Source of the DNA: Streptomyces sp. Alt3
Lineage (GTDB): Bacteria; Actinomycetota; Actinomycetes; Streptomycetales; Streptomycetaceae
Length of the DNA: 64,000 bases
Assembly: GCF_030719215.1 (NCBI RefSeq)
Contig: NZ_CP120983.1
Span: 6,324,001 to 6,388,000, forward strand
Direction of reading: 5' to 3'
Notes under the pieces: generated by a model
Database searches by the model: none
What the model was told of the DNA's origin: nothing
The model's input: the letters and a program-made list of their open reading frames with translations, nothing else
In this document: piece by piece, positions 3,174-60,902 of the stretch
Layout of the letters: every line of letters begins with the position of its first letter
How positions within the stretch are numbered: position 1 is the first letter of the stretch
Made by a program: the position numbers and the translations under genes

Positions 3174-3714
3174 AGAACAGCGGCTGCGGAAGTATCCCCT
3201 CGAGCGCCAGCAGCTGCCGCTTCGTCTCCGGCCCGCCCCCGAACCCGCCGAGCCCTCCGCCGCTCTCCACCACCCGGTGGCACGGAACCACCACCGGCAG
3301 CGGGTTGGAGCCCATGGCCGCCCCAACGGCCTGGGCGGCGCCCGGCAGGCCGGCCAGGGCCGCCAGGTCCCCGTACCCCACGACGGTGCCGTAGGGCACG
3401 CCGGACGCCAGCTCGCGCAGCACCTCGCGGTTGAAACCTGAGCTCAGCGACCAGTCCAGGCGGAGCGAGAACTCCCTCAGCTCCCCTGCGAAGTACGCGG
3501 CGAGCTGTCGCACCGGCTCGGCCAGCAGCGCGGAGTCCGTCTCCACGGGCTCCGCGCCCAGCCGTGTCCGCAACTGCCCGAGCGCCGCGTCCCGGACCGC
3601 CGGCCGGGCGTGGAAGGCCACGGTCACCAGACCCCTGCGGGTCGCGGCGAGCAGGAGCGGTCCGATGCCGCTGGGCACGACGGACCACTCCACGACCTGC
3701 TCGTCACTCTCCAT
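3172..3714 (-). CDS. ogt: Methylated-DNA--protein-cysteine methyltransferase
   Basis: A suicide DNA-repair protein that removes methyl groups from O6-methylguanine onto its own cysteine. The active-site motif PCHRV is near residue 140, preceded by the helix-turn-helix region (FNREVLRELASGVPYGTVVGYGDLA) and followed by the GGFGGGPETKRQLLALEG tail typical of the Ogt class. The ATG at 3714 gives 180 residues; the frame extends ten codons upstream to 3744, but that stretch has no homology. It stands alone ahead of the transporter/psuG genes on the same strand. Confidence 0.93.
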   Translation of the reverse strand: MESDEQVVEWSVVPSGIGPLLLAATRRGLVTVAFHARPAVRDAALGQLRTRLGAEPVETDSALLAEPVRQLAAYFAGELREFSLRLDWSLSSGFNREVLRELASGVPYGTVVGYGDLAALAGLPGAAQAVGAAMGSNPLPVVVPCHRVVESGGGLGGFGGGPETKRQLLALEGILPQPLF

Positions 3715-60666: not shown

Positions 60667-60672
60667 TAGAGT
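60667..60672 (+). promoter_or_regulatory. -10 box of the Y RNA locus
   Basis: TAGAGT is a good vegetative -10 hexamer. A start six or seven bases downstream falls at 60678-60679, the first paired base of the first Y-RNA-like structure. No convincing -35 box was found. Confidence 0.55.
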
Positions 60673-60678
60673 CATGGC

Positions 60679-60759
60679 CATGCACCTCCCGGTGCGAAGG
60701 CAGCGGCTACTTCCTTTCCCGAAATACGCCGCAGCCGTCCTGATCTCGGGAGGCACATG
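60679..60759 (+). ncRNA. Short Y-RNA-like structure without a tRNA-like module
   Basis: About 80 bases fold into a Y-type stem. The outer helix is CATG/CATG plus CCTCCCG/CGGGAGG (60679-60691 with 60747-60759, one 2x2 internal loop). An asymmetric internal loop follows (GTGCGAA and GTCCTGATCT), then an inner helix GGCAGCGGC/GCCGCAGCC (60699-60707 with 60728-60736, one A-A mismatch) and a 20-base loop. The 27 bases at 60688-60714 match the second structure (60770-60796) at 22 positions, and TCCTGATCTCGGG at 60738-60750 is repeated exactly in it. This suggests a duplicated Ro-binding stem. Transcription is not shown by sequence alone. Confidence 0.65.
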
Positions 60760-60763
60760 CGCC

Positions 60764-60902
60764 GGGGTGCCCGGTGCGCAGGCGACGGATACTTCTTTGA
60801 TTCGAGTGTTGCGGGTTCGAGTCCCGCCCGGCCACGGCCGGTAGCTCAATCGGGTAGAGCATCGGAATAGCACCGCCGCCGACTCCTGATCTCGGGCACC
60901 CC
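60764..60902 (+). ncRNA. yrlA: YrlA-like Y RNA with a permuted tRNA-like module
   Basis: The ends pair perfectly: GGGGTGCCCG (60764-60773) with CGGGCACCCC (60893-60902). An internal loop (GTGCGCA and GACTCCTGATCT) and the inner helix GGCGACGG/CCGCCGCC follow (60781-60788 with 60873-60880, one mismatch). Inside lies a tRNA-like module in permuted order. It has a T arm GCGGG-TTCGAGT-CCCGC (60811-60827), then an acceptor-like hairpin CCGGC-CACG-GCCGG (60828-60841), then TA and a D arm GCTC...GAGC with GGG in its loop (60842-60860). An ATTC/GAAT helix could replace the anticodon stem. This is the architecture described for bacterial YrlA RNAs, and the Ro60 gene follows 42 bases downstream. Confidence 0.85.

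Follow-up and report, generated by a model that had tools for sequence, protein, structure and literature searches.

A tandem array of predicted Y RNAs, one with a permuted tRNA-like module, lies upstream of ro60 in Streptomyces

In the genome of Streptomyces sp. Alt3, the DNA directly upstream of a gene for a Ro60 protein would be left blank by annotation that relies on Rfam's present model. This raises the question as to what is encoded there, and what it might do for Ro60. Work on bacterial Y RNAs has, to our knowledge, been confined to a small number of species, and the reason why one of them mimics a tRNA is open. An initial annotation of a 64,000-nucleotide (nt) stretch of this genome (here, the window) proposed a single YrlA-type Y RNA at this place, with the parts of a tRNA in permuted order. 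The available portions of two reviews describe YrlA as a substrate of the tRNA enzymes DusA and TruB (PMC8394870) and, for other bacteria, a Y RNA whose basal stem binds Rsr and whose tRNA-like domain binds PNPase (PMC8394870, PMC4726728). In Salmonella, according to the accessible sections of PMC7790460, the rsr-yrlBA operon holds two Y RNAs together with Rsr; rtcB and rtcA belong to it as well, and its control lies with RtcR, a sigma54 activator.

The proposed RNA, here called Y3, has the T arm, acceptor, and D arm where the initial annotation placed them and in the order claimed, the reverse of that in a tRNA. The perfect 10-bp stem formed by its 5' and 3' ends, the inner helix, and the CACG loop are likewise all present in the sequence (Table 1). 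The Rfam YrlA model (RF02553) matched Y3 with 64.0 bits (E 1.6e-14 in the 361 nt searched), a match that spans 60782-60885 and the full model (1-114) and whose score lies under the curated gathering cut-off of 69. In a genome-wide search, for which 150 of 1083 first-look candidates were scored, Y3 was the best YrlA match (E 9e-14) among the seven listed at E up to 10; the second-best, with 38.4 bits, spans two tandem tRNA-Asn genes. As the initial annotation had expected of standard methods, a whole-window Rfam search at the gathering score listed nothing at Y3, and ARAGORN called no tRNA there. Y3 has neither an anticodon arm nor a linear cloverleaf by inspection of the sequence and by ARAGORN, and is not classed as a transfer RNA. 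The YrlA cut-off was also reached in none of 20 related Streptomyces Ro60 loci (0/20). Since the model at its cut-off misses the Y RNAs of the window and of all 20 loci, annotation that relies on it would leave them blank.

Table 1. Features of the Y RNA array and ro60, in window coordinates
Feature	Coordinates	Strand	Evidence
-10-like box TAGAGT, predicted array promoter (predicted start near 60680)	60667-60672	+	TANNRT pattern
Y2, Y RNA without tRNA-like module, ~80 nt (81 nt)	60679-60759	+	repeat of Y3 flanks, model R1
Y2 lower stem	60685-60691 x 60747-60753	+	repeat search, covariation analysis
Y2 inner helix, 5' strand GGCAGCGGC	60699-60707 x 60728-60736	+	one A-A mismatch
Y3, YrlA-type Y RNA with permuted tRNA-like module	60764-60902	+	YrlA model, covariation
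Y3 terminal stem, perfect 10 bp	60764-60773 x 60893-60902	+	6/10 pairs changed on both sides
Y3 inner helix	60781-60788 x 60873-60880	+	7/8 standard pairs; A60785 opposite C60876
Y3 module-closing helix, at tRNA anticodon-stem position	60801-60805 x 60862-60866	+	5/5 pairs changed on both sides
Y3 T arm GCGGG-UUCGAGU-CCCGC, loop UUCGAGU	60811-60827	+	sequence, fold, YrlA match, all cells paired
Y3 acceptor-like hairpin, loop CACG	60828-60841	+	sequence, fold; 5/6 pairs changed on both sides
Y3 D arm	60844-60860	+	fold, YrlA match; 2/4 pairs changed on both sides
GAATTCGGGGGAATTC inverted repeat, likely ro60 ribosome-binding site in its loop	60926-60941	+	75/81 loci
ro60, Ro60 (TROVE + vWA), 526 aa	60944-62524	+	PF05731, fold match

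Folding energy by itself is poor evidence for Y3 (z -1.45; 15 of 200 shuffles fold equally well), and because of this weakness we used covariation in its place. The comparison covered 81 loci, namely the window and 80 named Ro60 loci, the best 80 of 224 found; the nearest of these belongs to [Kitasatospora] papulosa, with a Ro60 95% identical. Y arrays occur in the Ro60 loci of relatives, and the feature is not confined to one strain. Motif searches were run over the 81 loci first, and then the covariance models R1 (74 Y2 sequences) and R2 (55 Y3 sequences), to which most of the scanned loci had also contributed sequences. Alignment of the homologous loci revealed compensatory changes in 20 of 38 Y3 pairs over 55 sequences, with 95.8% of cells paired. 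For two further kinds of unit, Y1 and Y2, described below, the values were 12 of 39 pairs with 99.5% of cells paired (54 sequences) and 3 of 15 pairs with 99.6% (74 sequences). In each of Y1, Y2, and Y3, none of 500 shuffles reached the observed number of cells changed on both sides, a number that kinship of the strains inflates and that refers to structures drawn on the same sequences. When the structures were slid by 1 to 3 columns, far fewer cells were paired than in the true register. The Y3 alignment (A2) holds 55 of 67 rows, with 9 Leu-type rows and 3 with long inserts left out (12 in all); from the Y1 alignment (A3), identical rows and a false one (L049; locus and genome labels are our own) were dropped.

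The changes are distributed over the RNA in an informative way. In Y3 they cover the terminal stem, acceptor, D arm, and anticodon-stem helix, and the module therefore amounts to a whole tRNA body minus the anticodon loop; the acceptor and D-arm covariation over the 55 sequences indicates that this permuted domain is under structural selection. All cells of the Y3 T stem are paired, four of its five pairs being invariant and one varying on one side, and two of the five T-stem pairs of Y1 vary on both sides. The lower stem of Y2 is nearly invariant, with none of its seven pairs changed on both sides, and the Y2 count of pair types is not above that of shuffles (500/500 as high). Lower stems differ from unit to unit (GUCCAG/CUGGAC, CCUCCCG/CGGGAGG, GGUGCCCG/CGGGCACC) yet pair within each. 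Taken together, the covariance model, the architecture, the covariation, and the co-occurrence with Ro60 documented below support the proposal that Y3 is a YrlA-type Y RNA.

The initial annotation treated this one RNA as the whole feature. Y3 is real, as claimed, but the window also contains a second Y RNA, Y2, upstream of it. The two are tied together by a direct repeat of 29 nt with 83% identity (60688-60716 against 60770-60798, 82 nt apart) and by a second one, TCCTGATCTCGGG, found at 60738 and 60884 (13 nt, 100% identity, 146 nt apart). Y2 scored 87.5 bits against model R1, the window being among the 74 sequences that built it, and the Y3 model R2 also matched Y2 (40.1 bits, E 1.9e-6). These repeats and the R2 match identify a Ro60-proximal stem and loop common to the Y2 and Y3 of one locus. 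Inspection of its 81 nt found no T arm or D arm in Y2, which is without a tRNA-like domain and is therefore classed as a Y RNA and not as YrlA. Y2 is present in 79 of the 81 loci, in three of them in altered form: L069 and L047 have it cut to about 45 nt, and in L077 it is full-length and divergent. This conservation and the upstream copy itself rule out the single-RNA reading. In the cut Y2 of L069 (2235-2290), nothing is left except the lower stem and the GGUGCG...UUGAUCUC loop that the units share, a naturally occurring minimal version of the presumed Ro60 site.

Across the 81 loci, three tandem units, Y1-Y2-Y3, are the commonest arrangement (54 loci, including the three with altered Y2), followed by Y2-Y3 in 18 loci, among them the window and its clade. 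The remainder have Y1-Y2 (five loci), Y1 only (two), or Y2 only (two, L018 and L022), so that in the last case the tRNA-less unit stands alone at a Streptomyces Ro60 locus. Y1 is of the tRNA-like kind as well and was found in 61 of the 81 loci by the model-based count; a first motif count gave the same total (61/81) with one false row (L049) and one locus missed (L007). The presence and absence of Y1 needs 10 changes on the tree of the 81 Ro60 proteins, a quick tree in which 28 of 78 inner branches are poorly supported. Traces of lost units can be recognized by eye: a collapsed hairpin with the Y3 lower stem in L012 and L048, the 3' half of Y3 in L032, and the 5' half of Y1 in L018 and L022. 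These comparisons support the view that the window holds a two-gene Y RNA array, which appears to be the reduced form of a longer one. In a separate observation, the first half of the Y3 D arm (GATGTG(T/G)C.GAA...) occurs in four consecutive copies about 100-60 nt before ro60 in L017, possibly as a trace of module rearrangement.

How such an array might be expressed is suggested by the position of its promoter-like element. In 74 of 81 loci, a -10-like TANNRT box stands no more than 22 nt ahead of the first Y unit, in most cases 13 nt ahead of Y1; it precedes Y2 in none of 59 Y1-bearing loci and Y3 in 4 of 70. The window's clade, which is without Y1, has a similar box and an upstream AT-rich block directly before Y2. 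A box before the first unit only suggests that the array would be made as one transcript. At its other end, 75 of 81 loci have the GAATTCGGGGGAATTC motif in the 150 nt that precede Ro60; this inverted repeat could be a translational switch or a protein site.

We then turn to the protein. The initial annotation named a complete TROVE/Ro60 gene directly after the Y RNA, and this holds: ro60 starts 41 nt downstream of the Y3 end, and its product matches PF05731 with 49.3 bits against a cut-off of 23. An AlphaFold model of the window Ro60 (pLDDT 77.6) matched Rsr of D. radiodurans (2nvo, E 5e-12), Xenopus Ro60 (1yvp, E 7e-13), and the Ro60 of a Thermus phage (9l5y, E 2e-16). The 13 best Foldseek matches are all TROVE/Ro60/Rsr proteins (E 4.2e-11 or better; TM 0.60-0.69 by query), and the gene is predicted from this model to encode a Ro60 with the TROVE HEAT-repeat ring and a vWA domain.

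Protein and RNA go together in the genus. Among 295 sampled Streptomyces genomes, which overlap with the 80 named loci and are not independent of them, a Y-model match was found in 151 and TROVE in 147, with both in 144, Y only in 7, Ro60 only in 3, and neither in 141. Model R2 finds units in two of the three Ro60-only genomes (L199, L200; the third is G081). Six of the seven Y-only genomes were read (L193-L198); five have Ro60 fragments and one has no Ro60 within the fetched 5 kb, so Y units are kept where Ro60 has decayed or was not found within that distance. Y3 still scores >150 bits in two of these six, L195 and L196, which speaks against a strict dependence of the Y RNA on Ro60; the Y RNAs are not strictly tied to the protein. 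The Ro60 fragments lie beside the Y units in L193, L194, L195, L197, and L198, and in L193 and L194 Y2 still scores 79-82 bits, with Y3 degraded or gone.

Which tRNA does the module imitate? We compared un-permuted Y3 modules with the 57 distinct tRNA sequences of the window's genome. The module of the window aligned best with tRNA-Lys(TTT), with a score of 37, whereas 67 shuffled Y3 units reached 18 at most. Other loci have other arms. A Leu-type D arm is found in 11 of 72 Y3 units, several of which have a hairpin at the position of the long variable arm that characterizes class II tRNAs, and an initiator-Met-type D arm is found in four loci (L028, L033, L052, L079). A fifth, L070, had been called initiator-Met type by a regular expression, and alignment shows an ordinary GUAGCUC D arm there. 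A D-arm test covered 9 of the 11 Leu units and 3 of the 4 initiator units. These scored 14-22 with their own isotype and 10-16 with the next, the shuffled maximum being 15; 8 of 9 Leu units and 3 of 3 initiator units exceeded this maximum, and the Leu match of L031 (14) falls in the shuffled range and is not counted. With many GUAGCUC arms, one isotype is almost as good a fit as several others, and we claim no isotype for them.

To account for the 11 Leu-type units on the tree of Ro60 proteins, 10 changes are required. Four pairs of loci were compared, of which L051 and L072 are the clearest. The two agree at 298 of 300 positions over Y1, Y2, and the 5' stem of Y3; in the module they agree at only 69 of 104, past it at 74 of 80, and in Ro60 at 1514 of 1560 (97% DNA identity). 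Between L049 and L043 the rest of the array differs too. These alignments indicate that the tRNA-like module is exchanged as a cassette between close relatives. The cassette may come from tRNA genes or from the Y RNAs of other strains.

In the class at large, 54 of 394 genomes have TROVE, and they belong to 22 of 137 genera. Outside Streptomyces, we scanned regions of about 4 kb at 34 Ro60 genes (32 genomes) with R1 and R2, and R2 matched at E 0.01 or better in 32 of 34; L259 and L272 had no R2 match at that threshold in their ~4-kb regions. Six of these loci (L241-L246) have four or five units packed into about 0.7 kb. All 10 non-Streptomyces arrays inspected begin with a tRNA-less unit, and 5 of the 10 have a third type of unit, about 120 nt long, with a T arm, a long hairpin, and a GC hairpin in place of the D arm. 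The Rfam YrlA model gave 17 matches in 15 of 19 other-genus loci (33.5-53.9 bits), none reaching the cut-off. A Glu D arm is the best match above the shuffled range in 7 of 45 units, and in 5 of the 7 Glu-bearing arrays another unit matches another isotype above that range; 15 of the 45 units do not surpass a score of 15, the highest that 225 shuffles gave, and the Glu match of L246 (13) lies in the shuffled range and is not counted.

Streptomyces phages carry similar sets. Alone3 and BRock each encode a Ro60-like protein (50-51% identical) with R2 matches just upstream, as in the window; unlike in the window, their Y units lie inside phage tRNA clusters, and the two clearest units of each are weaker, at 32-56 bits. 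In Alone3 (L289), a Y RNA-like match of 32 bits at 2265-2419 overlaps an annotated tRNA-Ser(gct) at 2274-2347 and adjoins the phage Ro-like gene, and a further match of 56 bits at 1919-2068 is unannotated. The tRNA-Ser(gct) annotation may be a misread Y RNA.

Returning to the question raised at the outset, we consider it very probable that Y2 and Y3 are an array of Y RNAs with ro60 as their partner gene; a single transcript would be trimmed to Y RNAs that dock on Ro60, and Y3, with its exchangeable cassette, would tether the protein. From the one promoter before the first unit, transcription would begin at Y2, pass through Y3, and probably enter ro60; RNases would then trim Y2 and Y3 apart into separate Y RNAs. 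Both have the same stem and internal loop, the presumed Ro60-binding site, and both would be expected on the Ro60 ring. Y2 would occupy Ro60 without a tRNA handle. Y3 carries, in permuted order, an anticodon-stem remnant, variable loop, T arm, joined acceptor, D arm, and second anticodon-stem remnant, a body that tRNA-binding proteins and modifying enzymes would be expected to treat as a tRNA. By analogy with Deinococcus and Salmonella, Y3 may tether Ro60 to PNPase or another tRNA-binding factor and so direct it to the decay of structured or damaged RNA. Y2 and Y3 have the Ro60-side stem in common but not the handle, and from this anatomy we infer that Ro60 may work with two kinds of RNA, one that tethers and one that does not.

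An alternative sees Y2 and Y3 chiefly as the 5' untranslated region of the ro60 mRNA, a cis-acting leader that Ro60 binds to stop its own translation, with the GAATTCGGGGGAATTC hairpin as the switch. A promoter-like box before the first unit only, an array that in the window ends 41 nt before ro60, and the presence, in 75 of 81 loci, of a GAATTCGGGGGAATTC motif that covers the ribosome-binding site would all fit such a leader. It would have no need, however, for a tRNA-like module, for exchange of that module, or for several redundant units; the reviews, as far as their text is available, place bacterial Y RNAs in Rsr particles (PMC8394870, PMC4726728); and Y units persist where Ro60 has decayed or was not found. 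We regard this explanation as unlikely.

That the module only survives, without a role, from a place where tandem tRNA genes met is very improbable. The next-best YrlA match of the genome is the tandem tRNA-Asn junction (38.4 bits); at junctions of this kind the arms stand in permuted order, and modules could have come from them. The acceptor, D-arm, anticodon-stem, and terminal stems all show compensatory changes, however, which refute degeneration as the whole story, and the module is conserved across genera and linked to Ro60; we keep the idea as a proposed origin of the module. That Y3 is a permuted tRNA gene, circularized and processed to a working tRNA, is scarcely credible despite its arm order and its score with tRNA-Lys(TTT) (37 against a shuffled maximum of 18), as it has no anticodon arm and a Y RNA stem in place of the anticodon loop, a 4-nt loop with no CCA bridges its acceptor ends, and ARAGORN calls nothing there.

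The same genome contains other tRNA-like oddities. A second, unrelated pair of permuted tRNA-like RNAs, with T arm, acceptor, and D arm in that order within long stems, lies outside the window and without Ro60 at G000:C1:2724389-2724729 (-). In all of the 10 best loci, it immediately follows the gene of a DUF7873 protein (PF25283, 407 bits; loci of this pair: L149, L279-L288, L292-L305). Similar DNA at E 0.001 or better occurs in 73 of 150 Streptomyces genomes, a few of these matches being short or on the Ro60 array (e.g., G018, G077), and by eye the pair, or a single unit of it, can also be recognized next to DUF7873 in two further families of the class (f17, f18). Over 10 sequences, 15 of 107 predicted pairs changed on both sides, and YrlA matches to this pair reach only about 27-34 bits. 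No mention of DUF7873 was found in the literature searched, and the pair and its partner are possibly a new tRNA-mimic system. Within the window, ARAGORN calls a tRNA-Trp at 3267-3340 (-) where the Rfam tRNA model lists nothing, probably a false or decayed tRNA. In the tRNA list of the genome, three odd tRNA-like genes called Trp, Met, and Asp (L177, L178, L179) have one and the same unusual D arm, GTAGCGCAGAGGTCGTCGCGC, and T arm, GACGCCGGTTCGAATCCGGCC, and differ from each other in anticodon and acceptor stem.

The locus is of a known kind, a YrlA-type bacterial Y RNA beside Ro60, and two Y RNAs per operon are known from Salmonella in the available part of PMC7790460. Like YrlA (RF02553), Y3 has the T arm-acceptor-D arm order, an enclosing stem, and a place beside a Ro60 gene; unlike it, Y3 scores below the cut-off, has a long GC-rich terminal stem outside the match, stands in a tandem array, and has a module that imitates different tRNAs in relatives. 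Salmonella rsr-yrlBA, as far as described there, likewise has two Y RNAs beside a Ro60 orthologue, whereas those described here lie upstream of ro60 behind a sigma70-like box. The Y RNA/Rsr/PNPase complex of D. radiodurans (RYPER), in the accessible text of PMC8394870 and PMC4726728, shares the Ro60 orthologue and a Y RNA with a presumed Ro60-binding lower stem. RYPER tethers PNPase, and for Streptomyces Y3 such tethering would be by analogy with it. As far as we have searched, in sources available in part, the arrangement is new: up to five units, a single promoter-like box, a tRNA-less unit in 79 of 81 loci, and exchange of the tRNA mimic. Our literature search returned nothing on Streptomyces Y RNA and Ro60 or on this locus; the central Y RNA papers fell outside its scope, and we claim no priority.

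The exchange invites a broader, tentative idea, which we put forward as possible. Actinomycete Ro60 loci may keep a repertoire of permuted mimics of different tRNAs, renewed by swapping bodies into a constant stem, so that Ro60 would be fitted with interchangeable decoys or adaptors. If so, the swapped bodies would include Leu with its long variable arm, initiator Met, Glu, and the common GUAGCUC type, several per array, and they would perhaps chase the tRNA-targeting nucleases of phages or rivals as decoys, or recruit different tRNA-handling enzymes. In Streptomyces, harmless as a laboratory bacterium, nature supplies a series at this one locus: the number of units ranges from one to three, the module is present in some arrays and absent from others, and near-identical strains differ in the tRNA that it imitates. 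With this series, whether the identity of the imitated tRNA matters is directly testable.
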